From Fragilaria crotonensis (lineage: Eukaryota > Bacillariophyta > Fragilariophyceae > Fragilariales > Fragilariaceae): a DNA stretch of 64,000 bases. The stretch lies in NCBI GenBank assembly GCA_022925895.1, contig JAKSYS010000148.1, forward strand, positions 41,665-105,664, written 5' to 3'. The stretch's first letter is position 1. Each line of letters opens with the position of its first letter. Shown here piece by piece: positions 3-64,000 of this stretch. The notes beneath the pieces were generated by a model. It was not told where the DNA came from. It ran no database searches and saw only the letters and a list, made by a program, of their open reading frames with translations. A program made the translations under genes and the position numbers.

Positions 3-66
3 GCGTTGTACAAGCGTCGACATTACTGGTAGAAAAAAATACACTAATGTCGCTGCGTTGTACGAG
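3..66. repeat. Nested direct and inverted repeat at the window edge
   Basis: A 12-bp sequence GCGTTGTAC(A/G)AG occurs directly repeated at 3-14 and 55-66. Between the copies, CGACATTA (18-25) and TAATGTCG (45-52) form perfect 8-bp inverted arms. It lies just downstream of the transposase stop codon, so it could be part of a transposon end, but the rest of that end is outside the window. That link is inference. Confidence 0.4.
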
Positions 67-4140: not shown

Positions 4141-4162
4141 TCAACAATTTCGAATCACAAGA

Positions 4163-27300: not shown

Positions 27301-27788
27301 CGACTGGAGCACCCACTCTATTGCCCACACAACCTCCGACCGAATCTCCCAGTCGTGCACCTACATCGAATCCAACTACTCGTGCACCAACGACAAAGGC
27401 ACCCACGAGTCCTCCTACATCGAAGGCACCCACGAGTCCTCCGACGTCCAAGGCACCCACAAGTCCTCCGACGTCCAAGGCACCCACAAGTCCTCCGACG
27501 TCCAAGGCACCCACGAGTCCTCCGACGTCCAAGGCACCCACAAGTCCTCCGACGTCAAAGGCACCCACTAGTCCTCCTACATCGAAGGCACCCACTAGTC
27601 CTCCTACATCGAAGGCACCCACTAGTCCTCCGACGTCCAAGGCACCCACAAGTCCTCCTACATCGAAGGCACCCACGAGTCCTCCTACCACTCGCACGCC
27701 TACTTCGACTCCCACCACTCGCGCGCCGACATCGACACCCACCACTCGCACGCCTACTTCGACTCCCACCACTCTTGCACCCTCTTAG
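24357..27788 (+). CDS. Gametolysin-type (M11) metalloprotease, paralogue D, with expanded Pro-Thr tail
   Basis: Secreted zinc metalloprotease in opposite orientation to A-C. Exon 1 24357-24428 (signal peptide MKTVCVALSLFLLNIAHVAA), exon 2 24512-24819 (propeptide), exon 3 24927-25452, exon 4 25522-25589, exon 5 25701-27788. The zinc motif HEFGHNLNLAH is joined across intron 3 with Asn in place of the metzincin Gly; the Met-turn candidate is DQSGMM, then GYSYSSDDGP and CFNGPKTWQLGW. Exon 2 is 308 bp instead of the 312 of C: AG is missing near 24600 (GACAAAGTATC) and two bases near 24675, so the propeptide frame is broken as written. The tail has about 35 units of a 24-bp repeat (PTRAPTLS) and about 11 of a 27-bp repeat (SKAPTSPPT). 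Indels between 26850 and 27250 switch frames repeatedly, yet the frame stays open to 27788 because no frame of the repeat holds a stop. Confidence 0.75.
26261..27115 (+). repeat. 24-bp coding minisatellite (PTRAPTLS)n
   Basis: The unit is close to CCTACTCGAGCTCCAACGCT plus TTCA, about 35 copies with third-position variation (CGAGCT/CAAGCT, CCAACG/CCTACG). Frame 1 reads PTRAPTLS, frame 2 LLELQRFH, frame 3 YSSSNAFT; none has a stop. After about 26850 units carry 1-4 bp deletions, changing the phase. Confidence 0.9.
27395..27690 (+). repeat. 27-bp coding minisatellite (SKAPTSPPT)n
   Basis: About 11 units of AAGGCACCCACGAGTCCTCC plus TACATCG or GACGTCC, all in one frame, coding KAPTSPPTS. Units differ mainly at synonymous sites (ACGAGT, ACAAGT, ACTAGT), so the protein repeat is better conserved than its DNA. 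Confidence 0.9.
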
Positions 27789-36287: not shown

Positions 36288-36292
36288 CTAGC
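36285..36292 (+). promoter_or_regulatory. Candidate stop-codon readthrough signal UGA-CUA-G
   Basis: The gag stop reads TGA CTA GCA. Both gag (from 34920) and pol (from 36306) lie in the same frame, with no other stop between 36288 and 39978. UGA followed by CUAG is an established leaky-termination context. A readthrough fusion would supply Pol at low level. Seen: frame and motif; inferred: function. Confidence 0.6.
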
Positions 36293-36305
36293 ACACACGG
36301 TCGCT

Positions 36306-39300
36306 ATGGTTTCGCAGGCCGTGTACTCTATAAATTACGATGCAATGCGAGGAGATGGTCATCGCTCGGGTCGCTGTGAAATGGATTCTCACGCCGATAC
36401 CTGCGTAGCCGGAAGCAATTGCGTTCTTTTGGAATACACTGGACGGACGGCAGACGTAGAGGCCTACTCTCCCGACTACCCTTCGAAGAAGATACCGATA
36501 GCGACGGTGGCGACGGCTTACGATTGCCCGACTTCGGGAGCTACGTTTGTGTTAATCATTAACGAAGCTCTTTATTTCGGAGACTCGCTTTCATTTTCGC
36601 TCCTTTCTCCCAACCAATTGAGAGATAACGATGTACACGTTGATGAACGACATCGACAGCATGCACATGATTCACTTTTTGGCATCTACGTTCCCTCCGA
36701 ACCTCTCAAAATACCATTCACTCTCGACGGCGTGGTCGCCGGATTCGACACACGACCCCCTACCCAAGATGAACTTGACGATGTTAACCTCCATGTTGAA
36801 TTGACCTCTGATGTGGAATGGATTCCTAGCACCTTTGCCCTCTCACTCGCGGAGGAGGAAGTTGCAAATCCAGACGACGAACAGAGGATTTCAAACTTGC
36901 GAGCTCGGCGCGTGAAGGTTCTAGCTTCGAAAACAGCAAAACTACGAATCAAGAGTTGTTTACTGACCCTGGCTGCGACCCAGTATCCATTCGAGATCCA
37001 GATAGCTAACGAGGTCAATGCCCAAGATCATTCGGACGATCCAGTCCTGAGAAGGATTGCGGCTCTGACGATAGCGAAAGAGGACTCGGAGGAGACGTCG
37101 ACAGTAGCGGCAATTCGAACAGGCGACGTTACTTCAAGTCTGACCCCGGAGAACGTGGCACGCCACTGGATGGTTGGAATTGAAACTGCGAGAACGTCAT
37201 TGAAAGTGACGACTCAAAGAGGCGTTAGATCAATTCCAAACCCAGCGACGCGACGCTTCAAAACTCAGATGGCGCACCTGCGTTACCCGAGATTAAAGGG
37301 GATGTTTTATGCTGACATCATGGAGCCCAAGATAAAATCAGTCGATTCACAACGATACGCCCACATCATTGGAAACGGTCGCGGCTTTTCGAAGGCATAT
37401 CCAATGGAGCGGAAGAACGAATCGATTTACGCACTAGATGATTTTGTCAAGAAAGTGGGAATCCCTGAAACTTTGTTGTGTGACAACGACGCGACGATGG
37501 AAGGATGGGGAGAATGGAAGAAACGGGTTCGAAAGTACTCGATCGATCCGAAGTATACCGAACCGTACTCACCATTTCAGAACAAGGCGGAGCTGGATAT
37601 AAGAGAGCTCAAGAGAATGATTCGACGATTTCAAGACAAGACGAGATCTCCTCGAAGACTTTGGAACTATTTGGTTAATCTTTGTGCCAATATAAGGTCT
37701 TTTATCGCGGGGACGCATCCAGATCTACACGGACGGAGTGCCTTCGAGCAAGTGCATGGATGGACACCGGACATTTCGCTCTACGTCATGCATGGTTGGT
37801 ACGACGTTGTTGCCTTCCTCGATAATGACAACGAGCGAAAGTTGGCCTGTTGGCTGGGTCCAGCGGAGGACTACGGCGGCGGGGACGCAGTGTTCCTGCT
37901 ACCGAAATCCGCAAGACCGATCGTCCGAAGCACAGTCTGGGCACTGACTCCAACCGAACGTGCTGATCGCAAGGATGAGATCGAAGACTTGTTAAAATCG
38001 ATCGATGGTAAGATAGGTGACGATCGGACGAACGAGGAGGTGGCAGGAGAGCTCGGCAACGAACAGTTTCCGTTAATCGACATATTCGGGGACCTTAATG
38101 ACGCGACGGAGGAGGATTCGGAAGAGAATACACTCAGAAGATCCGACGCTGATGAATATACCCCAGAAGCATTCGATAAATACTTAACTGCCGAAATCGT
38201 TACCGACCGTGGAGGTGATATACTTCGCGGCACCGTGAAGAGCCGGAAAAGAGACAGTGACGGAAAGCCGATTGGATCGTCGAATCCGAATCCATTACTG
38301 GATACTCGTGAATACTTGGTGTGTTTCGAGGACGGAACGGAGGAGACGTATACTGCGAACCTCATCGCTGAGTGCCTATACTCACAAATTGATGACGAGG
38401 GTCGCAGGCTACAGGTGATGAAAGAAATCACCGATCATGAGAAGGGAAGAAATGCGCTCAGGGATGAAGACGCATATTATTCCACCAAGGCTGGACCGAG
38501 GCCCAAGCGGACTACGCGCGGATGGCGCCTCCTCGTCGAGTGGAACGATGGGTCCAGTTCTTGGGTCTCACTTGCAGACTTGAAGGATTCGTATCCAGTC
38601 AAAGTCGCCGACTATGCAGTCGTTAATAATTTGACACAAGAACCAGCCTTCCGATGGTGGGTTCCGTTTGTACTCAAGAAACGAGCAAGGATCTTGAAGA
38701 AGGTCAAATCCAAATATTGGTCAACTTCGCATAAGTACGGATTGGAACTCCCGAAAAGCGTGGCAGAAGCATTGGCGATCGACAAGAGAACGGGGACGGA
38801 CTTTTGGAGAAAGGCAATTGAAAAGGAAATTCGCAACGTGTTCCCTGCCTTCGAATTCATTGAAGACGACGCCGCTCAAGTTCCACCGGGGTATGGATTC
38901 GTTGACACTTACTTCGTTTTTGATATCAAGATGGACCTCACTCGTAAGGCCAGATTGGTGGCAAGGGGTAGTATGACTGAGGCAACGAAGGAGGAAACTT
39001 TTGCATCGGTCGTTAGCAGGGATACCGTGAGACTCTTCTTTCTCTTGGCCGCTCTCAATGACTTAGAACTCTTATCGTGTGACATCCAGAATGCATATCT
39101 TGCCGCGCCGAACAAGGAGAAAGTATGGACGAAGTTCACCGATCAACTCGGTCCTGAGTACAACGGAAAGAGAGCAATAATCGCGAAGGCACTTTATGGT
39201 TTACGTTCAAGCGGAAGATCCTTTCGAGATTATTTAGCTTTGAATTTGAGAGAGATGGGTTTCGTATCGTCCAAGGCCGATCCAGACCTTTGGATGAGAA

Positions 39301-39980
39301 GCGCGCTCAAGCCAGACGGGGACAAGGTTTACGAATACGTTATCTCGTATGTCGACGACCTTATATTCCAAGGGATCAACCCGAAAGAGTTCATGGGCTC
39401 GTTAGGACAGCGTTTTACCTTGAAACCTGGGAGCATCAAAGAACCTGATACGTACCTTGGAGTTGATGTGAAGAAATTCCGAATTCCGAACAGCGACGAC
39501 CCCGACAAGGTGAGATGGTCATTCGAATCAACTTCGTATGTCAAGAAAGCCATCACGGATTTGGAGCAGGAGCTTGGTGAAGCCGATCTCAGGTTGCTAC
39601 CTAGTGCAAAGACACCTTTGTCGAGCGGATACCGACCTGAATTGGATTTATCGCCCGAGCTAGGCAGCAAGCAACTGAATTATTTTCAAGGGTTGATTGG
39701 GGTACTTCGATGGATATGTGAGATAGGGAGGATTGACATCCTGATGCCCGTGTCGTTGATGTCTCGATACTTGGTCTCGGCAAGGCAAGGACACCTGGAA
39801 CAAGTCTTCCACATTTTCGCATATTTGAAGCACCACCCGAGGTCCACAATGGTATTCGATGACACAATTCCGACGTTCCGCGGTGAGCGTTTCGTCAAGT
39901 GCGATTGGTCCGAGTTCTACCCGAGGCAGCCGAAGCGTTACCGGAAAACATGCCAATCCCGAGAGGTAAAGAGGTCGTAA
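36306..39980 (+). CDS. Copia Pol: protease, integrase, reverse transcriptase, RNase H start (1224 aa)
   Basis: Enzymatic polyprotein. Aspartic protease: CEMDSHADTCVAG with DSHADT in place of the usual DSGAT/S. A leader ENVARHWMVGIETARTSLKV precedes the integrase, whose D,D,E residues are in GMFYADIMEP, LLCDNDATMEGW and NKAELDIRELK. Reverse transcriptase: ARLVARGSMTE, SCDIQNAYLAAP, KALYGLRSSGRSFRDYL and the catalytic YVISYVDDLIFQG, then LGVDVKKF. RNase H begins with VKCDWSEFYP, where the frame is lost: one base is missing in the CCC run at 39920-39922. The next stretch, with CFVDADHAG and GSELLAMR, is in another frame (39899-40306), and a second missing T at 40220-40222 precedes CDNSAVVTNARPE and LADILTKLMPG, ending at 40434. 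Confidence 0.9.
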   Translation: MVSQAVYSINYDAMRGDGHRSGRCEMDSHADTCVAGSNCVLLEYTGRTADVEAYSPDYPSKKIPIATVATAYDCPTSGATFVLIINEALYFGDSLSFSLLSPNQLRDNDVHVDERHRQHAHDSLFGIYVPSEPLKIPFTLDGVVAGFDTRPPTQDELDDVNLHVELTSDVEWIPSTFALSLAEEEVANPDDEQRISNLRARRVKVLASKTAKLRIKSCLLTLAATQYPFEIQIANEVNAQDHSDDPVLRRIAALTIAKEDSEETSTVAAIRTGDVTSSLTPENVARHWMVGIETARTSLKVTTQRGVRSIPNPATRRFKTQMAHLRYPRLKGMFYADIMEPKIKSVDSQRYAHIIGNGRGFSKAYPMERKNESIYALDDFVKKVGIPETLLCDNDATMEGWGEWKKRVRKYSIDPKYTEPYSPFQNKAELDIRELKRMIRRFQDKTRSPRRLWNYLVNLCANIRSFIAGTHPDLHGRSAFEQVHGWTPDISLYVMHGWYDVVAFLDNDNERKLACWLGPAEDYGGGDAVFLLPKSARPIVRSTVWALTPTERADRKDEIEDLLKSIDGKIGDDRTNEEVAGELGNEQFPLIDIFGDLNDATEEDSEENTLRRSDADEYTPEAFDKYLTAEIVTDRGGDILRGTVKSRKRDSDGKPIGSSNPNPLLDTREYLVCFEDGTEETYTANLIAECLYSQIDDEGRRLQVMKEITDHEKGRNALRDEDAYYSTKAGPRPKRTTRGWRLLVEWNDGSSSWVSLADLKDSYPVKVADYAVVNNLTQEPAFRWWVPFVLKKRARILKKVKSKYWSTSHKYGLELPKSVAEALAIDKRTGTDFWRKAIEKEIRNVFPAFEFIEDDAAQVPPGYGFVDTYFVFDIKMDLTRKARLVARGSMTEATKEETFASVVSRDTVRLFFLLAALNDLELLSCDIQNAYLAAPNKEKVWTKFTDQLGPEYNGKRAIIAKALYGLRSSGRSFRDYLALNLREMGFVSSKADPDLWMRSALKPDGDKVYEYVISYVDDLIFQGINPKEFMGSLGQRFTLKPGSIKEPDTYLGVDVKKFRIPNSDDPDKVRWSFESTSYVKKAITDLEQELGEADLRLLPSAKTPLSSGYRPELDLSPELGSKQLNYFQGLIGVLRWICEIGRIDILMPVSLMSRYLVSARQGHLEQVFHIFAYLKHHPRSTMVFDDTIPTFRGERFVKCDWSEFYPRQPKRYRKTCQSREVKRS

Positions 39981-40814: not shown

Positions 40815-40985
40815 GATGTCGGATGAAACAAGCGGTCGCTCAATGGCTCATAGACTCATAGTTCATACTTCTGGAGACCTTGAGTGCATCGATACAACCA
40901 GAATTTTTACACGTTTGATCGTTTTCACTTGTTAACAGCCTTCTCAAGCATTGATCAGCGCGGTTATCATCAGCTGCGATCTGGA

Positions 40986-43900
40986 ATGAACGTCCTAGTC
41001 GTCACTTCTCCGGATTCGACATCTGCGAAAGCTGCTGAACAAGGACCTCTGAAACGATTCCATTCCTCTTCTACATCTTTCTTTGACAAGACTATCTCAA
41101 CGCATGATCCATACAATACTCGGTGCGGCAGTGGAGGAGGGACGTTGGCTGCCTTGATGCTTGCAAATCCTCCCGCTCGTTCTAAAGATTCCTCCATTTC
41201 GGCGACCGCTTGTCCGACTTCCGTCGCTGCTCCAGAACAAGCTCCCACAGTCTTGATTGTTCACGCTGGAGGCGAGTCGTCGCGATGTCCAACCCAAATG
41301 GTGTTGGGCAAATCATGGACTACCTTGCCATGCCGTGAAAATGGCGACGACAATGTATCGTCGATTCAAACACCAACCTTCTGCATCATCCGGCAACTAC
41401 AAGAAACCTTGTTGCGAAATATTCCGCAGGGAGTGTCGTGGTTGCCGCCAGCGATACTCTATTGCGGCTACCATTTGATGATACTACTATTGACTGGAGT
41501 AGAATGCACGTTCATGGTCAAGACCAGCACCAGGACGATGCTCACGTGGTCCTGGGAGTAGCAGTACCTGCGCCTTTGGAGACCGCCAAGAATCATGGTG
41601 TGTACGTCTTGGCAGCACAATCGCAAAACGTACAGACAGATCCTAGCGATTGTTCAGTCCAGAGTTCCGCTAAGACCATTCAGCCGATTCATGATTTTCT
41701 GCAAAAGCCAACGGTCGATGCAATGAATAAATGCGGTGCCGTTTTCCCGCACCCAGTTACAGACGAGCCAAGCGCCTGGATCGATACTGGGATTGTCGTG
41801 TTTCTACCCAAGGCTGCAGCTGCCTTACGAGAACTGGCGCAGCAGGAATTGTCGTGTTGTTGCTGGGATGGATTGCAAGGCATGTGGGAAAGGCATAAAC
41901 TGTCGTCCACAGGAGACGAAAATCCTAGCTCAATAGATGACTTTGCTCATGCACATGCTATGAAAGTTGACTTGTACACTCATATGATGATGGCCTTGGC
42001 GACGCATTCGTCAGAGACCTCGACACTTGAAGAATACCTCAGGCGGCACAATGACTTACCAGAAAACATTTTGACAGGTATTTATCAACGATTGTCACCC
42101 TTTCAACTCCAAACCCTACTCGTCCCCGATGGACAGTTTCTTCACTTGGGCACAAGCAAGGAACTGGTGCAATTCTTGGTGCAGGGAACGAGGGATCTTC
42201 AAGGAGATGGTGTTCCATCGCCAGATGCCTTGCGTACCCGCTTGATTGCCGATGATATGCAATTAGCATCGGAATACCAATCCCTTCTCGTTCCCTCACC
42301 ATATTTGAACCCATCAACGACGAATCATCACATGTGTTGCTATAACTCGCTCATACAAACTACTGGGAAACTTCAAATCGGGCAAGGCTGCGTCCTGGAG
42401 CATGTTCATGTTCAACATGGAACGGTGGACATATGCATTGGTGAAGGGTGTCTAATCAGCGGTTGGAGAGGAGACCTTGGGTCAACGCCATCCAAATCCA
42501 ATATTGTAATCCCCAGCAAGACGTGTCTGCAAGTTATCCCACTTGTTGAGGAACAAAAGTTTGTGATCATGGTGTTTGGATTGGAAGATAACATCAAGGA
42601 TTGGCACAAAGTCCACGGAGTAGATGCTGGGGTATTCCTTCAAATGACGGGAATGGACGACTTATGGGATTCACAAGAAAAACAGATGCTTTGGACAGCA
42701 AAATTGCATCCCGTCGTGACAGAGATTGATTTGCCAGAGCTGTTTGCATGGGTCCAAGAACTGCAGGAGACAGGTGAAATCATCCAATGCACGGCATCAC
42801 TGAACTTTTATAAGTCACACCGCCGGCTTTCTCTTGAACAGATTCGAAGGCTCTCAGATGCACAAAAGAATGGGATTATCGTCATGACTTAGAACACATT
42901 GTCCTTCCAGTGCACATAAACTTGCTGAATCGCAAGCATGTAGAGTGCCGTGGGGAACTGAACGTCAAAACACTCTCGACCCTCTCCGATGTTTGCCAAA
43001 AGGCTGTTATGACTGTGATGTATGATGTCAGTGGGCGAGCCTTCATGGTAGCTAGCGCCATGTTTGCTGATCACCAGTTGCAAGATGCTGTCGTTGAAGA
43101 CATTCCGATTTCGCTGCAACAGATTTTGGACGACCTCCTGAACAGTCCTGACAATCGCATCAACTCTTGCAAGGCACTTTTCGAGGAATGCAAGATCTAC
43201 TGCGATCGCAACTCAGGACTTCAGACGACAACGGCCTCCTTGGCATTGGAGCGTGCGGCCTCGATCATGACTGAGCTGTGTGTCCGTGGAACCCATATGC
43301 CCACCTTTGAACGCACTGCCCCGGCAGTAACAAACGGCTGGATTCTCGCCACTGCTCCAGTTAGAGTAGACTTGTCGGGAGGATGGAGTGACACGCCTCC
43401 GATTTGTTTTGAGTATGGCGGAGCGGTGGCTGGTCTTGCAGTGACGGTGGACGGCATGAAACCTCTATCAAGTCGATGCCGGATTATTCCCGGTGGCTCG
43501 GGCATTTACATTTGTACGGAATCACGAGATGCGATTACTGGGGAGCTTCAGAGTTATGCAAGTTCGAAGCTTTCTATAGTGAGTGATCTGGATGACTGCC
43601 GCAATCCACATGCTGATTGCGCTTTGATCAAATGTGCGCTTGTATACCTCGGACTGCTATCCGATGATGCAGCTCCTTCCCAAGATTTGCAACCGTTTTT
43701 GAGGAGATTTTGTGGCTTGAACCATCAGGTCGGGCTTGAAATCGTGTCGACATCTCTCCTTCCCAGAGGTTCAGGCATGGGAACTTCGTCTATTCTGGCT
43801 GGCTGCGTTCTTGCTTGTCTGGCCCGCTGTGTCGGAATCGACTTGCATGAAAATGACGACTTGCGTCTCGTTTCTGTAGTTCTGGAGCTGGAACAACTTT

Positions 43901-44565
43901 TAACATGTGGCGGCGGTTGGCAGGACCAGATTGGAGGGCTGTTTGGAGGATTCAAACTCGGGACGTCAAAGGCATATGAGTTTCCTGTGATTGCACATGT
44001 CCAGCGTACGCCGTTGAAACAATCAACCATCGCAAAGCTAGATGACCGCTTGATCCTCGTTTTTTCTGGTCAAACTCGCCTTGCAAAAAATATACTACAA
44101 CAGGTACTGCATCGATGGTCACGGCGAACACCAGAGATTGTTGATACGGTCCAAGCGTTGGTTCAAGGCGCGCATCGAGCAAGCCGGGCTCTCGTTGACG
44201 AAGATTTGGATACTGTCGCACAATGCCTCAACAATTATTGGAGACTAAAGAAGACAATGGCTGGAGATGACAGTGGTGTGGAACCAGAAGTTGTTCGGCA
44301 TGTCTTTGCCGAGCTGTTCGAGCGGAACGAGATTGTTGCTGGGTCTCTTTGTGGTGCTGGGGGCGGAGGATTCATGGTGTTGCTCGCTTCGGAGGGGCGA
44401 ACCATGGATGATGTCAAATCTACGTTTGACAAGGAGATACTGCCCTTCCATAAGGACGCTGCGGCCTTTACTTGGCACAAGGGTCAAGTTTCCGAGAAGG
44501 GCCTGGCAACTACGATCCTACCTTTGACGGCGGATGCATTTGACATTGCATGGCACATGTCTTGA
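40986..44565 (+). CDS. FKP: Bifunctional L-fucokinase / GDP-fucose pyrophosphorylase, interrupted by two single-base frame breaks
   Basis: Salvage enzyme: phosphorylates L-fucose and converts fucose-1-phosphate with GTP to GDP-fucose. ATG at 40986. The pyrophosphorylase half has RCGSGGGTLAALM, the nucleotide-binding loop of the family, VLIVHAGGESSR and, after the first break, SVVVAASDTLLRLPF, then beta-helix-like repeats. The GHMP kinase half has APVRVDLSGGWSDTPP, SLLPRGSGMGTSSILAG, the P-loop, and CGGGWQDQIGG and GSLCGAGGGGFMVLL. It needs one extra G in GGG at 41429-41431 and one extra A in AAAA at 42864-42867 to read through; then it is about 1,190 residues, close to the plant enzyme. All catalytic motifs are intact, so recent inactivation or consensus error is likelier than old decay. 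The Copia 3' LTR ends only 171 bp upstream of the ATG. Confidence 0.85.
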
Positions 44566-50996: not shown

Positions 50997-52047
50997 ATGA
51001 AGGTACTGTTCCTTCTCTCATCACTTTTAGTGTCGACCAATGGCTGGTCTTACCAGAGCCTGCAACGCCAGGCAAATATCATGGCGCAAACGAGGCGAGA
51101 TCCCATTCAAATGCCAACCCAAACGCCCATGGTTCCATACAAGGTGAGTGATCGTCGCACTGGACCTATGACACTACAGTATGCAACATGGGCCACTACC
51201 ACTTTAGTGAGAGCAACAGCATTGACTACGCTGCAACCTATACAACAACTGACATCCATTGAATCGGAACATGCAACAACTCACCAGTCTGCTCTCTCTC
51301 TTTTCTTTCAATTAGCCCCCGGGTTCCGATTACGCTCAATTCGTGGATATCAACACTCGCATGCTACGCGATCGCACCATGATGATTGGTCGTTTCATTG
51401 ATGAGAATGCCGCCAATGAAATCATTTCCATGCTCCTTTGGTTGCGCAAGGAAAGTATGACTACCCCTATTGACTTGTACCTTAATGTTCCCGGCGCCCT
51501 TCTCCGACCAGGACTGGCTGTTTTCGATTTAATCGTCCAGACCAAGGATCAGGGGTGCGAAATTCGGACTGTCAATTTGGGATTGTGCAGTGGTATTGGT
51601 GCGCTCTTGGTCGGGGCGGGAACCAAAGGACACCGTAGCGCCATGCCGAATTCGAGGTTTTTGTTGCAACATACGGGAATAGATAAGGGATTTCGAGGAC
51701 AAGCCAGTGATATTGGTTTGGAGGTCAAGTCGGTGGTCAAATCCAACGAACGATTGGATTTGGAGTTGCACAGAATGACAGGTCAGCCGATTCCAAAGAT
51801 TAAGAAAGATATGCAACGTGATTTTTACTTGGCTGCAGATGAAGCCGTGCAATATGGACTTATTGATCAAGTCTTGTTGCCAACATTCAACAAGCGAGCA
51901 GCAACCGGCGGGGTCGTTGGTCTAGGATCGTTTGAAGGGGAAGCACAGCGCTATCAGCAAGGCGGTGGTGATGGATTTGGAAGTCAACGAGCTGTTGAGA
52001 GACAGAAGGAGGATGATTACGACGGTCCAGAAGTCGTCAAGGGATAA
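50997..52047 (+). CDS. clpR: Plastid ClpR-like (catalytically inactive ClpP family) subunit (292 aa)
   Basis: Non-proteolytic ring subunit of the Clp protease. Exon 1 (50997-51143) codes MKVLFLLSSLLVSTNGWSYQ..., a signal peptide with an aromatic residue at the presumed cleavage site, consistent with a diatom plastid presequence. A 172-bp GTGAGT...TTAG intron follows, then exon 2 from 51316. The join MVPYK-PPGSDYAQFVDINTRML matches the conserved ClpP/R start. Aligned to ClpP, GQAASMGAF becomes GLCSGIGAL, so the nucleophilic Ser is Gly, and the catalytic His position (MIHQP) reads LLQHT, so His is Gln with His shifted by one. KDMQRDFYLAADEAVQYGLID keeps the Asp region. Loss of Ser and His supports ClpR. 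The C-terminus after residue 250 is Gly/Gln-rich. Confidence 0.85.
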
Positions 52048-52179
52048 CGTCTCTTGGATCAGCCAAGTTCTAGTAAAATCAATGAAGATACAGCAGTTGT
52101 CACCTACTATACCCTAGTACTGAATATGCTACCCACTACCCACTCAACTCTGGAGCACCAGGTAACCATCAATCATTTT

Positions 52180-52920
52180 CTATCCTTTCTTCGAAGTCGC
52201 TTGCAAGAACACGGTGGCTTGTGAGTTGTCTTCGTTCGGCTTGATGGCACCTGGCAAAGCGAAATCGCTCACTGACGCTTTCAAGCGCTCCACCATGGTA
52301 TTAATACAATTGGGATCATTGCGCCGTGCCATGCCGTTGGCCCTAATTAACACTTGACAATTGTGTCCCTTTTGCAGGTACTTGACTATCGAGTCCGCCT
52401 TGCGGGCAAAATCATTCGCAGCAATGCAGGCTCTGAATTGGAATTCCTTCGTGGGTTTGGAACCTGACTTGCTGGTTGCTCGCTTTTCCGCTTGATAAAC
52501 AAGCTTGTCAATGTTCTGCGCTTTAATGACGGGTGGAGATTGCTCAATGTTGACTCCCACCAGATCGACACCGAGATCGGTACAGATCTTAATAGCATTC
52601 ATGAGGGACACGAGAGATGTCGTTGTTCCTCCTTTCTTTGAGCTGACAACGAGTCGTACATCCACATCATCGGCAGAGATTGCGTTTTGTTTCTGAATCA
52701 AATGTGTTATTAAGTGCTCATTGGCGAGCGGACCCTTGACTTTGGGCGTCTTTGTGGAGTTCGTTTGAGACGAGAAATACCGACTTTGAGAGGTTCTGTC
52801 AAAGGCCTCCGATAACGATGAGGACTTGTTGCCGGTACGTTCACAAGCATTCGCTGTCAGATCTAACCGTGTAGCAATAAGCCTCGCGGTTGAAGATGGT
52901 CGTGCCGCTAATCTCAGCAT
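52180..52920 (-). CDS. Mitochondrial translation initiation factor IF-3 (246 aa)
   Basis: Binds the small ribosomal subunit and controls start-codon selection. The ATG at 52920 was preferred (MLRLAARPSSTARLIATRL), because it begins an Arg-rich, acid-free mitochondrial presequence ending near RYFSSQ; the frame continues upstream without family character. N-domain: NEHLITHLIQKQNAISADDVDVRLVV, DLGVDLVGVNIEQSPPVIKAQ (family DLVEI...PPV), linker DKLVYQAEKRA, C-domain KEFQFRACIAANDFARKADSIVKYLQKGHNCQVLIR. The C-domain ends at ATVFLQATSKKG without a long extension. No introns seen. It converges on ClpR with a 132-bp gap. Confidence 0.85.
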   Translation of the reverse strand: MLRLAARPSSTARLIATRLDLTANACERTGNKSSSLSEAFDRTSQSRYFSSQTNSTKTPKVKGPLANEHLITHLIQKQNAISADDVDVRLVVSSKKGGTTTSLVSLMNAIKICTDLGVDLVGVNIEQSPPVIKAQNIDKLVYQAEKRATSKSGSKPTKEFQFRACIAANDFARKADSIVKYLQKGHNCQVLIRANGMARRNDPNCINTMVERLKASVSDFALPGAIKPNEDNSQATVFLQATSKKG

Positions 52921-53701
52921 TGTTCCCGTCGTTTTTGTGATGAGATCGACCGGTTTCGTTGGTATCTGTCCTTTGCTAACAAGGTAACACGAGCACAAAA
53001 GTATTCCAGATCCGTCATTTACAGCGTGTACCAATCATGCGCCAGTATCCCGCCGGAGCGACGGTTGGTGGCTCTGACGAATCGAAATAATCGCGAGGAA
53101 AAAATGGGTGACCGAATCTTCATTCCATGACGTCAGCACATTACGGTGGCGGCGAAGACGGCAGGCGGTCAGGCGGATCTCCGACGGCTGGATTTGATAG
53201 ATAGATGGTAGATGATAGCTATCGTATATGCATAATATTGCGTATTAAAGATGAAAGACAACATACTCACATAATCCGGTATTGTACTACCGGCACTAGG
53301 TGAACGCTCCAGCTACTGAACAATAATTGGAAATGATTATCGATTTCCCATACCATGTACACTTAACTCTTACCTGCACATATAGACTCTAAATTGGTGT
53401 GGTACAGGTGAGAGGAACGAGTATTCTCTCTCCACTCTACCGTACTAGTTGAGCGCTGGATAACTCAAAGCCATGACATACAACAAAAACACGACCTTGA
53501 TACTTCATTCCATTTGCACGACGAACGCAGACTAGGCTGGGCGTTTCTCAGAGGATTCCTCTGCGTCAGCATTTAGATGTTGTTACTATGATGTTCACCT
53601 TGCTGGATTCTGGCTAAATTGATGGAGAATTTCTGAGGAAGCCTACCAGTACGAGGGCATTGCTGTTTATCCGTAGTCAAGACGTCCTTGGTGCTGCAAG
53701 C
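52921..53701. other. Intergenic, nothing recognised
   Basis: About 780 bp between the IF-3 start and the end of the DNMT5-like gene. No frame, RNA motif or repeat that I can support. Confidence 0.5.
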
Positions 53702-56700
53702 TTATTCCCCTGAATTGATGGCCATTGATTTCGTCTCTTCGTCAGTGTTACGTCGAATCAACATGCCATCAAGACATTCTTCTCCTTCTGGACCTTGAAC
53801 TTCAATTCGATACAAGTGGACTAGAGGATGTGTCTGGCCTGGACGGTAAACACGACCAATGGCCTGCAGCTCGGTGCTCGCGTCAGCCACCGGATCCCCA
53901 CTCGCGCCGCCTTCTCCAACATACAAAGGAGTGAATAGAACTAGGTTGTAACACTCCGTTTGCAGATTCAGCCCAGCGGCGTGGGCAAAATGAAGCACAA
54001 GGACGCGCGGCCGTTCGCTGTCTTCTCGAGTAGCATCGCTTGATTGATACCACGCGATTTTCTTGTTCTTCATCTGTACCGAGTCGTTGGCATCCAGCCA
54101 TGTGCAGCCAAGACCACTTTCGACCAAGAAATCGCGAGCCGCAATGCCGGCGCCAATACGCCCGTCCGCAAAGACGACAATCTTGGTGGTTGGGTCACCT
54201 TTCAGAATTCGTTTGCAGATGGATACGAGCTCCTTTCCCCTGCACGGAAGGTTCGCATTCTGGCGCAGGAACTTGCTTATATCGTGTCCAGCTGTTGGAT
54301 CAAAGTCCTCTGGCTTGATCGACAAGCTCTTGTTTGCGGCTGAGATACCGGATTGACTATCCAAATAGGCGCGCTTCTCATCTTCAGACATCCTGACAAC
54401 ACTGCGATGGTCTTCTAGTTCAATTCCCTCCATCTCCTCGTCAGCCTTGTTTCGAGTACACGCAGTGTCAAGGAAGGCTTGACATTTGATGTTAATGTTC
54501 TTTCTCACCTCGCGGCTCTGTCTCGGTTCAAGGTAGTTGTGCAGGAAAATGTCTCTGCAACTCTCCCTTTCAAGCTTTCTCCAGTGAGAAGACAACCCAA
54601 TTACATAGGTACCTCCCATGAGGTTTGCAAGCTCAATAACGCGACTACTGCTATCCAGAAGTGGTGTACCCGTTAATCCAAAGATCGCCCTGCGACACAC
54701 TAACGGGCGCTTCTTGATATCTTTCTGAGTGATTCCTAACAATTCTCTGGCGGCACGACGATTCTTTTTCCTTGTAGAAAGATCCACTTTCCTTCTCCGC
54801 CGTCTCCTTTTCTGATTTTAATTCATTCCTGGTGGTACAAAGCGATTCATGGACTTCGTCGACTATGATACGATGGAACTCAAAGAACTCCAACGGAATT
54901 CCTCTTTCCGACCCCTTGAAAGTCTGCTGCCGCAGGGCTTGGACGCCTCTGTTGTACTGAGTTGTGTAAAATGCAGTGTGATTCCGACGTTTTTGGTTAT
55001 TCGGGTTGTTCGCACCTCCGTAAGGGTCGTTCGAGGAGCTAGGAATCCACACGCCTCTGGCTTGTGTCTGCTCGATTTGGCCTGCATACTGCGGAAGGCC
55101 TGGAAGATTTTTTCACTTCATGACCAAGGTCAGCCTTCCTCAAAAGGTTCTCGAGGTACCCATCTGCTTGCAAAATGTCGACATTGACAATAACCACATC
55201 AGCGCCCACCATTTTCTCAACGCTGACCTTCAGCATCGAATGGTAGTCATACACTTTGACAACATCGAGCTTGTCTGAGAATTTCTTGATCTCGGAATGC
55301 CACTGATCAATGAGACCCGGTGGTACAGCGACCAATGTCGCGCTGCTCTTATTGGGCAGTCCACGCTCTTGACGAGCGCTGTTGATGTCGCTTAGAATTA
55401 ATGCAATCGAAATCACAGTTTTGCCTGCACCAATGGCATCAGCGATGACGCCACCGCACAGAGTTGTGTTACGCGTTGCCTTCGCAGCCAAACTAAGCCC
55501 GGTCGATCCAGGCATTTCGAATTCGCTCATTTCAAGTTCCTCAAAAGTAGTCTTTCTTTCCTCAATCGCCAGCATCTTCGTTACAACTTTCTGTTGGCGT
55601 TCGTAGAGTTGGTATGGGGTCTGAGCTCAACGGCCGTGGCCTCAAAGGAGTCGCAGTTCCGCACTTTGAAAGTTGTTGTGACAGGGTCACTTTGTTGTGA
55701 AACATCGCTGAGACGAAAGTGTACGTTCACTTCCTTTCAATATCGATACCACCACGACCACAAATCAGTTGGCCTGCAGCATTGTGTGCAACGACTTCAG
55801 GGTAGAACTTCACTTCCATCTTTTTGGCATCCGTATCGAGCCAAATCTCGAATGGCTTTGGTGCTGCTTGGACGCAGGTAATACGCTCGTGATGCACCCG
55901 CCTCGCTGCTCCTCTCCACGCCTTCCTTTCCTCGTTGAAGAACCATGTTTCAGTTGGTCGATCAGGCACAGTGGATTTGCAAGTGCCAAAGGGAACCGAT
56001 GCATTTGAAGGAAAAATGCGCTCCCACTTTGCGTTCGGACTTGCATCTAGTTTCAGTCCTTCGCTTGCCGCATGCTTCAGAATTGGAGCAACACAAACAG
56101 CATTAAACACCCTCACCGTTTGCTGGGCCTGAGTCCCGTTAGACATGTTGAGTTTCATCCTTCCGGTAGAGTCAGTTCCTCGTCGGAACATTTGAACCTC
56201 AGTTTCGCTGAAACCATTTATTGCGATGAGAATATCCTTTCTTTCCCCCTTCGATGTGACTTTCAAATTCGAGGTTGGAATTAAGCACTTGAGGCGCGAA
56301 AGGGGCACGTAACGTCTGAATGTGAGCTCTTGAATGCATTTCTTTGGATCCAGCGCGTCGCACGGTTCCCAGCTGATCGGAAATTCGGCAATCACCGCAG
56401 TCGTGTCGTCGTGATTGCTCGACGAGGAAATGATCGCAGAATCAGGGCCAGTACGGAGGACGTTTGGGCGAAGCAAGATGAACAACGATTGAGAAGAATC
56501 CGTCGCGCTTCTAACCCACAGAGCACCTTGGTTAACAGTTCTTCGGCAACGAGACCTGACGTATGTCCCTTAACACTCACAATGCTCCCATCTTCAGGAA
56601 CGTCGTCAATGGTGATCCTTTCGGGCCACACCTTCCAATTTTTGGCATAGATCCACCTTCGCTCTTCGCCGCGGTGCTTCGCAGAGTCGAAGTCCTTCTT

Positions 56701-59700
56701 AATCCGTGCCTTGGATGCATGTTCTTTGAGGGCCAACGCTGCGTCGTCCGTTAGCCCGACATCCACTCGATTCGAGTCTGACGATCCAGCTCCGACGACG
56801 CTTACTACTGCACCAAATTCCTTGGATCGTCCTACCCAAGAACCCCGAGCATGTCCTTCATCTGAAGGCAACGCAAACATCGCGCATGCATCGATCAACC
56901 CGAAGAGCAGAGGCTCGCTTCTGGCGGGCATGAAGGATTTCAGCTCAGCGGTAACACCCAACGAGGCTGCGCCTTTTTCTTTCCTTCCCATTTCGCCTAC
57001 AGATATTTTGAACTCAGCCATGTTTTCGCCGACACCGTTGTTATCGCGAGCGTAGTAAATGAGATCCCATTTCTTCCTACCTCGCTTCAGTCGGTGTAGT
57101 TGAAAACAAGAGTGTCAAGACCGTTAACTCTCATATCGCCGTCGTAGAGCAGCAACTTCAAGAATTCCCTCCCTGTTGAACAGTAGTGTCGACGGTGCAA
57201 TGTTTCGGAGCTTCAGTTGTATCTCACTACTATTGTGAACTTTATCAGAGAGCTCCACCTCGGCCATTTCGTGCCCACTCAAGTTGTAACCAGCTGTGGT
57301 ACCAGTGCAGTTTCGACAGCACGAAATACGGCATGTAGCGCATTCTAGAAACGACGTGGCAGTGGACATGCTCCCGACGTTTCACATGTGCACCAAACCG
57401 AGGACTCTACAGCTTCCTTCGCTAGAGCAGCGAGGTCCTGGAAGAAATTGCTGTCACCGTCTGGACAAGAGATGTCGACAGGTTGGCTGGTCGCAGAAAT
57501 TTTTCCGCTCCATTTGCAAGACTTTGTATAGCTTTCGAGAACGCATTTTTTGTCAAGGTACTGTACGATTGCAGATGGCGTCTTGGCGTGCTGGGTCTCT
57601 TCTCGAAGCTGGCGACAAGTCAGTGCAGCCATCATGGTTGCGCAGACGACAGTCAAACTCATTGCATTCCCAGCAAGATCCCCAAGTTGCACTTCAGTTT
57701 CGTTTCCGAGGGCGAGGCGGAAGTACGGGATTCCTTGAAGGAGGAGCTTTTCGCATCCCAGCAGTGGTCGGCCTTCAGAAGGTACAAAGAAGTCACCTCC
57801 AGGGGTAACGCAGCCGGCGATCCCTGGCGTCGCAGTTCTGTGCTTCTCCTTTGAGGCGTTCTGGGAGATGTTCCAGTAGAAAGAAGCAAAATACGAATCG
57901 TGCGTTTCAGCATCCCTTGCGGCCGATGCATGCAGGATGTCAATGAGGTCCAAAATGCGCTGGTTGTTGCAGTTCATGTACTCCAGCCAAAAATGAGGTG
58001 GGACCTGCTTCTTCCCGTGTGCTCCCCAACATGTAGTGAAGCGAGCCATATCCTTAAGGCCAAGTTTCGCTCGAGCATTGACATTATGCGGCAGGTTTGC
58101 GCTGGCTGACGTCCTGGAATAGGAGAAGACCCGGCTTGTCAGTCACTTTGATTTTGACTTCACAACACGACATCAGAAAACTTACCAAAAGTCTGGCTCA
58201 AGGAAGTTCGCCTGCTTCGTTTGACGGCCAGCAGGTCCATTCAGACCTTCGCGGAAAGTTCTGATTATTTCATGATCGACATTCAGAACAAACGAGGGCA
58301 GACTGTGGCGTACAGGTGACTTGAGGTATTCAACTATCGTTTTCCAATACACTCCCAAATCGTCCGAAACATTGCCATCTTCGGGTTGCCACACAAACAT
58401 ATACACCCGATTTCTCGTTTGTGGAAGACCATAATCCTTCGTGTCCATTTTGCATGTTTGAGTGCAGTAAGTAACGTCGGTTTTGAACACGAGCGTGTCT
58501 TTGGCCTTCGAAATATTGTTCTTTCGCATAAGCTCTTCCAAAGAAACGGATTTCTTGTTGCTTGATGGCCACTCGACCTCGCGCAGTTTGGTTGACGTTC
58601 CTTCGAGGAAGCCATCAACTACTGCCCCACATCGAATACCATAAACAGCTGGCACGTAATCCACGACAATTTCGCCACCAGGTTCTCTCACAAAATTGAG
58701 ACCCTTGTTCTTATCCTTGATATTTTTGATGGCCTTATTCTTGTCGCACTCAGAAAGCTTCACTCTCCCAGTGATGTACTCTGACATCTTTTCCCAAGGC
58801 GCTCCTTCCACGTTCTCGAAAATAGCCATTTTGGGCATTTCCTTAAACAATAGCTCTGTCGCGGCCATAAAAGTTTCACCTGAGCATCCCCGATCTTCAA
58901 TGTCTAGGCGCTTATTCGATCGTAACATCGAAAAGTTTTTGCAGGACGTCCCTGCAACGAAGAGATTGAATGGCGGGATTGGTTTCTCTTGACCGTACAC
59001 GTCACGAGGAGGGTCATCGGTCAACTTAGAAATATCGGGGTACAAGATGGAATCAAAGTTCCTTGCCAAGTAAGCTGAGTGGGAAACAATTGAGTGAGCA
59101 AAACCTGGCTCAGTCGCCCGAATGATGCTAATACTCTGCACATACCTTGCTTGAATGGATCAACTTCGCAAGAGAACTCATGCGTGAAGTTGAGTGGCAG
59201 CATTTTGCGAAGTTCCATTTGCTCCTTCACAAGTCCAAGAGCCAGAGCGGGGGCATCGGTTCCACTGCATGCCGTCCCCAACTGGAGGGCTGTGTCAATG
59301 GATCCAAAATCATGTTGAATTGCGCGTTGTAACAGGCCACCAATCTTGTCAACCTGCTCGCCTACGAGACGATCAATGATACCATCAGTCGCTTCCATAC
59401 CGCATGGATCCAAAAATCCCTTCTGTTCCTTAATTTGTTGCAACGACAACTTTTGGTAGTCGGGGTAGTTCTTTGCTTCGAAGGACTCCGACATCTTTTT
59501 CTTCTCAGGGCCCCTTCCTTCACAGCACGCGCAGGTTTAGTAGCCGGTTTCTTGCCAGGGGTTGACTTTCTGGGCTTTGCTCTTGGATTCACTTTGGGCG
59601 CTTGGATTTCGTCGTCATCGCTGGCAGCATCTAGAAGTTCGTCATCGGAATCCTCGTCGTCCATTCCCTCAAAATCCGAGCTATCATCGTTCGCCTTCGA

Positions 59701-60440
59701 TTTCGCTGTCGTCTTTGCTGCTTTCGGTTTGCGCGGTGCTGGCGACTTTGGCTTCTCTTTGGCTTTGGTGTCGACTCCTCCTCGGACTCACTGAGCATGT
59801 CATCATCGTCTTCATCTGTATCATCAATGACGTACTTGATTTTCTTTGAGCAAGCCCGTTGTTGACGGCGTGACGGCGACGAGCCAGGGACAACAAAGCT
59901 CTCATCGCTATCGTCGGAAATATCTGTCTCTGTTTTGGGAGTCGCAGGTTTGGCGCGCTTTCGGGATGGACTTGCCTTCCTCTGGACCTTGCGCTTTTTT
60001 GCCACGAGAACTTTCTTGCGGACTGGTGTAGATTTCGAGGCAGAGTTGTTCGACAAATACTGAACGACTTCCTCGTGCTCCATATCCTCCACATCGCCAT
60101 CAGCGTAAACCACCCTGTACCACTTTATCTCGTCGTCGTGGAAACGATTTTCCCATCGTACAACTCTCCATCAGGTGGAAATGGCTTTCGGATGATCGTA
60201 CCAACTGGAAAAGTCACGAACTTGTCGTTAATGTCGGATTTCACCAGCACTTCCTCCGACGACACGGTCTTAGGTGGTGCAGGGCGAAAGAACTTGTCAA
60301 AGAAGGTTGCTTCATCCCTTCCGTCTGACCAAAGGTGTCGGATGATTGCTGTTGGAGGTCTTGGCAATGCAACGATTTGTCTTTATGGCGCGTTTTCCTG
60401 TGTATCCTATGGTCACCTCTCGTAGCGCACAGCTATGCAT
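53702..60440 (-). CDS. DNMT5: DNMT5-like protein: Tudor-like + C5 DNA methyltransferase + Cys cluster + SNF2 ATPase
   Basis: Putative ATP-dependent CpG methyltransferase (maintenance type in fungi). N-terminal Tudor-like segment near 60130-60070 (IKWYRVVYADGDVEDMEHEE), then a basic/acidic linker. Methyltransferase: motif I LGTACSGTDAPALAL (about 59270), CEVDPFKQ-AYLARNF across a 71-bp intron (59145-59075), motif IV VAGTSCKNFSML (SC for the usual PC), motif VI FENVEG, motif VIII YGLPQTRNRVYMF, and after a 72-bp intron (58185-58114) motif X GDLAGNAMSLTVV. A Cys cluster (WCTCE ... LECATCRISCCRNC) follows at 57310-57400. SNF2: ADAIGAGKTVISIAL, LVAVPPGLIDQWHSEI, IIVDEVHES, FGLTGTPL, AHAAGLNL, QAIGRVYRPGQ. 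As written, 11 one-base indels in mononucleotide runs break the frame, but no motif is lost and both introns keep good splice sites. The start is uncertain; a candidate ATG is at 60440. Confidence 0.85.
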
Positions 60441-61044
60441 GGAGTTTGAGCGTAGCATAATATATCGAGTACGTAGTACGTAGGATTTGCTTTACTCTAT
60501 GAGACTATGAGAGTTGAATTTGGCGGGAAAACTGTCGTAGACAAGCCCGACACAGCATTCTACGCATATGCTGTAAGATTTGAATTTTTGATTCCCACAT
60601 CAGCATCATGAAGTATCAAAGTGTATGCATATGACGGTACCTATGACATATGATACCAGCGTCCTACACTTTCTCCAATACTCAAGGCGATCCATAGAAC
60701 GAAATTCAAGTATCTGGTAGTTCACAATTGTACTATCATATGTCCTACTGTACGTCATACGGACAACAGAAATCATGAATGTGGTATGACACAGTAAAAG
60801 AAATTACGGTAGACGTGTATTTTGTATGATACAGGCCAGCAGTCCATTAATATAATGCTATAATGCTATAATGTATGGATAGACTACCCGGTAGTACTAC
60901 CAGGTATGCAACATCGCGAAATCGCAGAGTACAGTACAAGTACCGGTACCTGTACTGTACCCATATTGTACAGCCCCATTTCATTGCTCATGTTTTTCCT
61001 TCGTCAAATATGAGGCTGTCAGATACATCGAATCCCAATTGCCC
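60441..61044. other. Divergent promoter region
   Basis: No gene. Near the right end CAGTACAAGTACCGGTACCTG (60924-60950 area) repeats GTAC words resembling, but not matching, the GTACCWGGTAC palindrome. Confidence 0.45.
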
Positions 61045-61533
61045 ATGTGGAGTCGCCGTCCATCTCTCCTCGTTACGGCCATGTTTGCCGTCGCGACTAG
61101 AGGCGGTGCATTTGTTCTAGTGGCGAGATCGCCAGTTACTGCTGCTACACGATTCTTTGCCAGTAGTGTGTCTGGAACAATTTACAGTTCTGCATCAGAA
61201 CAAGATCCAACTATTCGTCTCTTCACCAAGGAGGGGTGCACATTATGCGATACTGTCAAGGAAACACTTCAATCCCTCCGTGATGAGCTACCGCATTCAC
61301 TGGAGGCCGTGGATGTCACGGATGCACAACATGAGAATTGGTACGAAAGGTACAAGTACGACATTCCGGTCCTGCACGTGGGAAATTCGTACTGGATCAA
61401 ACATCGGCTCACTCCGGACGAGGCCCGCGAAGGATTGATCGAGGCTCGAATGGGACGCTTCGCCGCTAGACAGGGCGAGCCAAACGCTGGCGAAATGGAG
61501 CGCCGTCAAGCTGAGCGGAGGAGACAGACGTAG
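61045..61533 (+). CDS. Glutaredoxin-like (DUF836-type) thioredoxin-fold protein, organelle-targeted (162 aa)
   Basis: Small redox protein of the glutaredoxin-like group (PF05768-like). ATG at 61045 (MWSRRPSLLVTAMFAVATRG). The N-terminus is hydrophobic with GGAF followed by basic residues, then ATRFFASSV, so plastid or mitochondrial targeting; the GGAF junction favours the plastid. The core has IRLFTKEGCTLCDTVKETL, a CxxC active site of the GCTLC type, then EAVDVTDAQHENWYERYKYD and IPVLHVGNSYWIKHRL with the cis-Pro (IPV). The C-terminus is charged (EMERRQAERRRQT). Single exon. Substrate unknown. Confidence 0.8.
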   Translation: MWSRRPSLLVTAMFAVATRGGAFVLVARSPVTAATRFFASSVSGTIYSSASEQDPTIRLFTKEGCTLCDTVKETLQSLRDELPHSLEAVDVTDAQHENWYERYKYDIPVLHVGNSYWIKHRLTPDEAREGLIEARMGRFAARQGEPNAGEMERRQAERRRQT

Positions 61534-61770
61534 CTACTCCTACAGGAGGCCAGAAACTAGGAACGGAATCAAAGCAACGAGATACAGTAGAAAGAGACTT
61601 GCAATGTTATGCATGTGGAATTTAGACACAAATATTAATCATCCCCTCACACCTTACATTGGTAAGCTGCACTATTTCAGTAGCCCAGACTGCGTTCTTG
61701 AAAACACTCCGTATTGTTTGTCGTTTATTCTCCTCCTTCTCCCTTCGCTCTCCACCTGAGACGAGCTTGT

Positions 61771-64000
61771 TTACACTTTGCCCTCACCAGTTGATACTTC
61801 AGGCGCCGCACGCTTAATGTTAGTCGAGCTACCAAAAAGCGGTAAGGCGGCAGAATTGGTTGCCGCCCCTCCTCCGAAAGGATTGCTACCCCCAAACGCA
61901 CCAAAAGGGGATGCAACGGACGGAGGTGCCGCAATGCTAGGAGTTGGTAACGTAATGGATGTCGATCCAAAGTGAACGGAGCAGCTGTCGACGATGGCGG
62001 CTTCATATCCAAAAACACGGATGAGGTCGTCGAGGAAGTGTCCTTCGTGGTAGAAGAGCCGAACCCCAAAATGGATGGAGAGGTGCCAAAGACCAATCCG
62101 CCACCCACAGGAGGTTTCCCAAAACTACTAGAGCCGAAGGTTGGCAGTTGCCGCTGAATGTGGGATTGCCAAACGGAGAGGTGCCGAATGAAAGAGTTTT
62201 CGGAGTCAGTTTCCTTCTTTTCAGTGGCAGGTGCTGAAACTTCGGTCTTCTGATCAACTACAGCCTTGGCTGCATGTGCGATTGACTTGAATATCGCCTT
62301 GACTTCAGCGGTGGCTTCAATGGCAGGTTTCTCAGCCTCCTTGCTTTCGGGTTCTGGCTCGAGCTCCCTCTAACACAACCGGCGCAGCAGTGGCTTCCTC
62401 TGGTGGCACTTGAATGGGCACAGGAGTTGCCTTTGTATCCGGCAATTGCTCCTCTTCTCGTCGGAGATAGCTGAGCATTTGCTTAGCAGTAGCTTCTTCG
62501 AGTTTCTTCTTCCGCTGAACAAGGGCCTCTCGCTTTCGCATAAGTTGGTCTTTCAAAATCTGAGCAGCCTTGGCTTTTCATCAGCTTTGGCTTTTTCGTC
62601 TGCCTTGGATTTTTCTTCAGCCTTGATTTTTCTTCAGCCTTTGCTTTTCGTCAGACTTAGCTTTTCCATCAGCCTCGCACTGTCGTCAGCCTTTGCGTCC
62701 CCCTGCTTGACCAGAGACTCTACTTTTCCGTTTCTGCATAATCCTTGACATTCTCCTGTGCCTTATCCACGACCTTAGGTCTCTTAGAGGGTGGAGCGCT
62801 GGAACTTGACTTGTCCGCTGGAACGACCACCGCGGATGCTGCCCTCTTCTGAGTCTCTTCCTTCTTTGCAGGAGCTGACGTGGAACTTGGACCGAACTTG
62901 AACCCACCAGCCGGCGTACTCGGAAGACTTTCCTTCGCCACTTCCACAACAGCTGGCACTTCATTTTCCACTTTGTCGCACTCTCCTTTGCGTCAACCTT
63001 TGCTCTTCTTTGGTCTCGCTAGCCGACGTTGACTCAGCAGTGACGACAGGCAAAGCTGTCTTCTGAGGAGAAATTGACGGTTGCAAGGAATTCGACGGTG
63101 CCTTGACTTCGGAACAGTGACCGGGGCTGCAGCCGCAGACTCCAAGTCGCTGATCTTCTTGCGCTGCCCCGATTGTCTTCTGAAACTGGCGCATGCGTTG
63201 CTTCAACATCTCGATTCTGTCACTTGCCCTTTGAGCTCTGTCTGGTTTGACTTAGATTCAGCATCCATCTTCTGGAGCTTTTCCTTCAGCATCGCATTCT
63301 CCTTGGTTATATCACTGGTCGCCGACGAGGATACAGTTGCTGATTCTTTGTCCGATTGCATCTTCTTCAACAGGCTCTGCTGCTTCTGAACGAGTGCTTT
63401 CTGCTGAGCGAGCTCTTTGTTCAGCTTCGAAACTATGGCCTTGGCGTTCGTCCCTCTTTCTCGGTGACTTCCTTCTGAGCCTTGAGTTCGTTTATCTCTC
63501 TTCTAGAGTCTCTGTCTCGCTTCAGGACCCTGTTGTGCTCTTCAGGGTCAATTTGGTTGAACTTCGACACAAGACTCTGAACGCGTTGCTTCCACGATTC
63601 CAGCTCGCGCTGCAGACTACACTTCTCTGCAACGAGTGCGGCTTTTCAACAGAGAGCACATTATGCTCTTCTGAGGGGGCGACCAATCGTCGCTGTTCAT
63701 CAAGCTGAACCAATGCCGCATCCAGACTTTCCTGCAACTTCTTGCCCTCGCTGCGCAAAAGTCGGTTACTCTCCTGTAAGAGTGCAAGTTGTTCCTCCTC
63801 TTTCTTGAGGCTGCCTTCCGCATCACTGTCCGTGCGGGTTGCAGTGGCGGAGGACATCTGCTCCTGCAGAATTCTAATTTCAGCCCGTGCCTCATCCAAG
63901 CTGCGCATTGTGACAGCCGCCACAGCCTTTTCTGCTCGGCAGTTCGCCTTGCCGTCAATCTTCGCCTCGTTCATTTCGCGCTCGGAACGCATAAACTTTA
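61771..64000 (-). CDS. TPR/Mlp-like nuclear-basket nucleoporin, C-terminal part, frame-broken
   Basis: Coiled-coil nucleoporin; the N-terminal part lies beyond the window. From 63992 down: long coiled coil (LDEARAEIRILQEQM, LLQESNRLLRSEGKKLQESL), then LQRELESWKQRVQSLVSKFN plus QIDPEEHNRV, which resembles the W-x-R...DPEE segment of TPR/Mlp/NUA proteins. A Lys/Glu/Ala-rich region follows, then FG/GxFG motifs near 62260-61850 (TFGSSSFGKPP, LVFGTSP, SPFGAFGGSNPFGGG, LPLFGSS) and the end KRAAPEVSTGEGKV, stop at 61771. The reading frame changes at least six times between 63500 and 61900, so it cannot be translated in one piece as written. The FG tail is consistent with the pore basket. The identity is moderately sure, exact exons are not. 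Confidence 0.65.

Follow-up and report, generated by a model that had tools for sequence, protein, structure and literature searches.

The DNA analysed here (the window) is the whole stretch of 64,000 bases at positions 41,665-105,664 of contig C57 of the Fragilaria crotonensis assembly; C57 ends at 105,664, so the window reaches the contig end. Near that end lies a gene of the DNMT5 type whose reading frame appears to be broken many times. The question raised by this locus is whether those breaks exist in the organism, in a gene that has very recently lost its function, or only in the assembled record.

A DNMT5-type gene at a contig end

The gene occupies the window minus strand from 53,702 to 60,315 and comprises approximately 2,150 codons in three exons, as judged from Pfam matches, homologue alignment and start and stop codons. 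The start codon was set at 60,315, following gene model P0124. Its main features are as follows.

53702-60315, minus strand: DNMT5-type gene (N-terminal Tudor, C5 cytosine methyltransferase, SNF2 ATPase), with 14 apparent frame breaks
59075-59145, minus strand: intron 1, GT-AG, 71 bases, frame continuing across the junction
58186-59074, minus strand: methyltransferase exon, open in the window without a break; nine deletion events in the copy on contig C878, one of them at the last base of the exon
58114-58185, minus strand: intron 2, GT-AG, 72 bases, frame continuing across the junction

A first-pass annotation, made from the letters of the sequence, had proposed a DNMT5-like gene on this strand with two GT-AG introns. 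Both proposals were borne out: the introns lie at 59,145-59,075 and 58,185-58,114, and Pfam identifies the Tudor (PF21743), C5 methyltransferase (PF00145) and SNF2 (PF00176) domains in the window frames. The PF00145 match has an E value of 7.4e-09 and covers part of the profile. In homologues, e.g. P0003, the methyltransferase and the SNF2 ATPase are contained in a single predicted protein. The Tudor domain is nearly whole in P0121, a protein of a close relative (profile positions 4-46 of 48), and a frame break leaves only half of it in the window (21-46 of 48). A Cys-rich stretch is visible, and Pfam names no RING finger there; in the accessible part of PMC9998398, the helicase part of DNMT5 is described as being complemented by a RING finger or not.

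Homologues numbered 185 at E ≤ 0.001. Among the best 120 of these, the named predicted proteins have lengths of approximately 2,140-2,340 residues, and their sources include Cylindrotheca fusiformis, Seminavis robusta, Mayamaea, Nitzschia inconspicua and Fragilariopsis. When the genome was searched with the methyltransferase exon, four matches were obtained, one in the window and three on the C878 copy. The genome scan with PF00145 missed this locus, although its score exceeds the cut-off when computed directly; family scans therefore lose matches, and counts derived from them are lower bounds.

The order of domains, a cytosine methyltransferase followed by a SNF2-type ATPase, is that of the diatom DNMT5 proteins (DNMT5a and DNMT5b) as described in the accessible part of PMC9998398. 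That part reports a Tudor domain for some DNMT5b proteins only, and one is present here at the N-terminus. Judged by domain content, then, the gene looks more like DNMT5b, and no substantive difference from the diatom DNMT5 described in that part of the paper was found. Nothing suggesting an unusual function was seen in the gene.

Fourteen apparent breaks relative to intact proteins

Frames were derived by frameshift-aware alignment to two proteins of a close relative, P0001 (1,450 aa, covering ten sites) and P0121 (451 aa, covering four). Together these guides cover exon 1 and exon 3 except its start, the methyltransferase exon (59,074-58,186) lying outside their reach. Ten events were found relative to P0001 and four relative to P0121, giving 14 in total, of which 10 occur in the window only and 4 are common to the second copy on C878. 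Positions are approximate, since a protein alignment cannot fix the exact place of an event inside a repeat.

60294, minus strand: apparent 1-base deficit, window only, outside a run
60139, minus strand: apparent 1-base deficit in the Tudor domain, common to C878; does not look like a run error
59756, minus strand: apparent 1-base deficit, probably in a run, common to C878
59511, minus strand: apparent 1-base deficit, window only, outside a run
57377, minus strand: apparent 1-base deficit, probably in a run, common to C878
57141, minus strand: apparent break, one base extra relative to P0001 or two short if P0002 is the guide, common to C878; does not look like a run error
57107, minus strand: apparent 1-base deficit in a run, window only
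56571, minus strand: apparent 1-base deficit in a run, window only
55915, minus strand: 1-base deficit in a run, window only
55871, minus strand: 2-base deficit, one unit of a two-base repeat, window only; restores the frame jointly with 55915
55738, minus strand: apparent 1-base deficit in a run, window only
55619, minus strand: apparent 1-base deficit in a run, window only
55113, minus strand: apparent 1-base surplus in a run, window only
54767, minus strand: run with one base more in the window, and one fewer in C878, than P0001 predicts

It is apparent that the frame is broken many times, as had been claimed, and that P0001 and P0121 run uninterrupted through all 14 sites; the proposed comparison with the orthologue of a related diatom thus yields proteins intact across these sites. 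The window encodes the residue found in the relative's proteins at 1432 of 1440 codons aligned to P0001 and at 408 of 417 aligned to P0121. Stops are absent from the aligned codons, also where the residues differ.

The first-pass annotation had listed 11 one-base indels. Each corresponds to an aligned event, but the list was incomplete, the events at approximately 60,294, 55,915 and 55,871 having been missed. Six of its positions lie within 4 bases of the aligned ones; the other five are displaced by 13 to 44 bases (59,498 to approximately 59,511, 57,168 to 57,141, 57,094 to 57,107, 56,527 to 56,571 and 54,789 to 54,767). At 55,110, where a base was to be added, the run in the window is in fact one base too long. 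When the 11 sites were corrected at the positions first given, 18 stops remained in the best frame, which indicates that some of those positions are off, and the frames were re-derived by alignment to relatives for that reason.

All of the indels had also been placed in mononucleotide runs. Run membership was counted on the 10 window-only events, for which C878 shows the other state; the four shared events have no second witness. Changes in the length of runs of at least three bases account for 7 of the 10, the exceptions being the single bases at 60,294 and 59,511 and the two-base repeat at 55,871. Runs of this length make up 15.8% of the bases of the gene, and 7 of 10 exceeds the chance expectation (binomial P approximately 0.0002, or P = 0.003 if counted as 7 of all 14 events). 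Runs of at least two bases cover 45.6% of the gene, so the GG and CC sites by themselves mean little.

P0001 and P0121 are each listed with a contig of 16,106 bases and therefore probably come from one contig. P0121 reads on into sequence resembling intron 1, and so its source looks genomic. At 17 residues, the relative's proteins differ from both C57 and C878, which match each other. P0001 and P0121 therefore derive from another haplotype, probably another strain; their integrity does not, of course, prove that of the gene in strain SAG 28.96.

A second copy of the locus on contig C878

The end of C57 is repeated at the start of another contig.

51496-64000, no strand assigned: contig-end overlap, in which the last 12,505 bases of C57 correspond to the first 12,553 of C878

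The overlap runs end to end and was left unmerged in the assembly. BLAST reports 57 mismatches and 141 gap openings between the copies. In a MAFFT alignment of the whole 12.5 kb there are 97 substitutions and 111 indel events, numbers that are so close because the right part of the overlap looks heterozygous. Nine substitutions are situated in the leftmost kilobase; some occur from 57,690 rightwards, and most from approximately 60.4 kb, with many near 60.4-61.5 kb. The two contigs thus probably carry different haplotypes in the right part of the overlap.

The interval from 52,496 to 57,495 is of another kind: in the same alignment it contains 31 indels, the longest of 4 bases, and no substitution. 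Mutation does not explain 31 indels without a single substitution over 5 kb, and these differences are errors in one copy or the other. Over this interval the copies look like one haplotype read twice. The interval contains eight of the 10 window-only breaks; those at 60,294 and 59,511 fall beyond it.

Between 53,705 and 60,400, C57 and C878 differ by 39 indel events, ten substitutions in codons and two more in an intron. Seven of the codon substitutions are synonymous and three non-synonymous, a small sample. C878 lacks 10 of the 14 breaks of the window and keeps the frame at 9 of those 10; at 54,767 neither contig has the expected run length, the window exceeding it and C878 falling short. 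The breaks at 60,139, 59,756, 57,377 and 57,141 are shared. C878 also has breaks of its own, its alignment to P0001 containing 23 break lines, two of them common to the window.

Coverage by open frames, taken as a measure of error density, was 43% in the unique part of the window, 17% in the window overlap, 43% in the C878 overlap and 23% in the next 28 kb of C878. By this measure the overlap is not consistently worse than its surroundings.

Frameshifts elsewhere in the assembly

A further pair of copies was available on contig C881 (150,396 bases), which we take to be the plastid from its HSP70- and Cpn60-type genes and its size. A stretch of 7,670 bases is present there twice, inverted (within C881:4000-11999 and 130000-138000). 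The copies differ by 11 one-base indels, all 11 in A/T runs of at least four, and by no substitution. One copy of the HSP70 gene is open over profile positions 1-594, and the other is split into four pieces. The Cpn60 match is incomplete in both copies. The pair on C826 and C541, two copies of a DNA methylase gene considered for the same use, shows 115 mismatches and 25 gap openings at 94% identity; these behave like truly diverged copies, unlike the indel-only pairs, and were not used.

Chaperonins are essential, and their genes should not be dispensable. Searches of the genome gave 26 matches to the Cpn60/TCP1 family and 36 to HSP70, both being lower bounds. The TCP1-alpha gene (best match yeast TCP1-alpha, 5.8e-188) is open on C257; relative to that frame, its C485 counterpart differs by three indels and two substitutions. 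In the CCT/Cpn60 and HSP70 genes a fixed rule picked out 21 junctions between neighbouring matches, of which 14 change frame across a DNA gap of less than 40 bases; the other seven, with a larger gap or an unchanged frame, were left out of the count. For 13 of the 14, the step in the DNA equals the step in the profile within 2 bases (the final subtraction was done by hand). These 13 are spread over 5 of 14 and 4 of 18 contig-strand groups, and by this rule the remaining groups have none. The chaperonin junction at C862 34,742-34,757, at first a candidate frameshift, leaves room for an intron of approximately 71 bases and is not among the 13. A chaperonin gene at C238:3209-7018 showed one frameshift without room for an intron and, by eye, two more that cancel each other.

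Within the window, a fucokinase/GDP-fucose pyrophosphorylase fusion gene (40,884-44,565) changes frame at approximately 41.4 kb, inside a Pfam domain and with no room for an intron (positions by hand); a second change was seen by eye at approximately 42.87 kb. The break is probably an error of the same kind, and it lies outside the contig overlap, so the errors are not confined to that overlap. The other frames inspected in the window beyond the overlap are long and uninterrupted, such as those for a sugar transporter (681 residues) and an O-fucosyltransferase (742 residues).

The remainder of the window contains several further frames. A 1,230-aa open frame with a reverse transcriptase domain (RVT_2) is situated just before the fucokinase gene, at 36288-39980, and a 554-aa open frame at 582-2246 has a MULE transposase domain. 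Frames at 4141-5241, 8667-9863 and 25692-27788 match the PT disordered repeat, the first of them below the Pfam cut-off.

Sequencing method and comparison with a known case

Strain SAG 28.96 of F. crotonensis was sequenced with MinION R9.4.1 reads, called with Guppy 4.0.15 and assembled with Canu 2.1 (PMC9476933). Polishing was by Pilon with 65 million paired-end Illumina reads, after which Redundans is named (PMC9476933). The published assembly comprises 879 nuclear contigs and 61.85 Mb, with 81% BUSCO and 26,015 gene models (PMC9476933); the genome analysed here has 881 contigs and 62.1 Mb. The main text of PMC12159174 mentions neither frameshift nor nanopore.

Run-length errors in nanopore-only fungal assemblies shift frames and mislead BUSCO, and were mended by short-read polishing, according to the accessible part of PMC7500977. 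The resemblance to the Drechmeria coniospora assemblies described in that part is close: in both cases small indels, mostly in runs, break the frames of conserved genes, and gene models and completeness scores are misled. Some differences are apparent in the comparison with the same part of that paper. Polishing fixed the run errors in D. coniospora, whereas here errors persist despite the reported Illumina polishing; here, too, the clearest case sits in an unmerged contig-end overlap, and some events fall outside runs.

Interpretation of the breaks

Taken together, these data argue strongly that the DNMT5 gene is an ordinary one that most likely works, and that its apparent breaks are consensus errors left in an R9.4.1 nanopore assembly, a reading that we hold with high confidence. 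The earlier suggestion of an unpolished long-read consensus thus survives in its main part. Consensus error is supported by the difference from C878 at 10 of 14 sites, by the excess of indels over substitutions (31 to none), by the R9.4.1, Guppy and Canu method and by the same pattern elsewhere; since Pilon polishing with Illumina reads is reported, however, the errors are better termed residual than unpolished.

The reading runs as follows. A contig end of 12.5 kb was assembled twice, as the end of C57 and the start of C878, and left unmerged. Taken with the controls, consensus error explains the window-only breaks, the relative siding with C878 at 9 of the 10 sites, and the gene itself most likely works. 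Pilon may have failed in part because reads were ambiguous between two near-identical contig ends; the chaperone frameshifts in genes that the searches found once suggest that ambiguous mapping is not the whole cause. The four shared breaks would stem from systematic nanopore errors that affected both copies in the same way.

Several observations weigh against consensus error: those four breaks common to both contigs, the origin of P0001 and P0121 in another haplotype, open-frame coverage that is not consistently worse in the overlap, and the reported Pilon and Illumina polishing. Polishing of that kind worked in the case described in the accessible part of PMC7500977, so the survival of the errors here calls for a cause. 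One alternative is a true and very recent pseudogene: SAG 28.96 would have lost DNMT5 function, with at least the four shared breaks carried by both haplotypes. The presence of the four in both assembled copies is in keeping with such a loss, as is the fact that the intact proteins belong to a different haplotype. A decaying gene fits poorly, however, with the absence of 10 of the 14 breaks from the other copy, with 31 indels and no substitution over 5 kb, with aligned codons free of stops and with seven synonymous to three non-synonymous differences between the copies, small as these numbers are; chaperone genes of the same assembly are frameshifted too. We regard the pseudogene as very improbable. 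If the four shared breaks were real and fixed in SAG 28.96, the strain would be a natural, very recent DNMT5 knockout in culture, a prospect to which we give only a slim chance; consensus error is by far the likelier explanation for these four.

The contigs might instead be true alleles or paralogues, one haplotype being broken and the other intact through allelic loss or the decay of a paralogue. The substitutions from 57,690 rightwards, by which the overlap is probably partly heterozygous, would suit this explanation. Both copies are broken, mostly at different places, and there is no substitution over 52,496-57,495, so that it appears even less credible than the pseudogene. Bypass of the breaks by programmed frameshifting, RNA editing or tiny introns would account for a protein conserved across them but is exceedingly unlikely, as the two assembled copies do not have the same set of breaks, unrelated genes are frameshifted and the relative encodes the protein without breaks in apparently genomic DNA (P0121 enters intron 1).

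Consequences for use of the assembly

The effect of the errors can already be seen in a submitted gene model. MHU86_7637 (P0124) is a model on C878, and seven pieces of it that were looked for all occur in the C878 copy. Around the two breaks that both contigs share in exon 1 it skips approximately 190 and 75 coding bases, and past a C878 deletion near window position 58,936 it runs to its end out of frame.

The public assembly thus contains frameshift errors in more than one contig, by which conserved genes are split; any gene count based on it, and any claim that a gene is absent or a pseudogene, should be checked against reads. For F. crotonensis itself, the finding is very probably that of an assembly artefact in an ordinary gene, the frame breaks being in the record and not in the organism.
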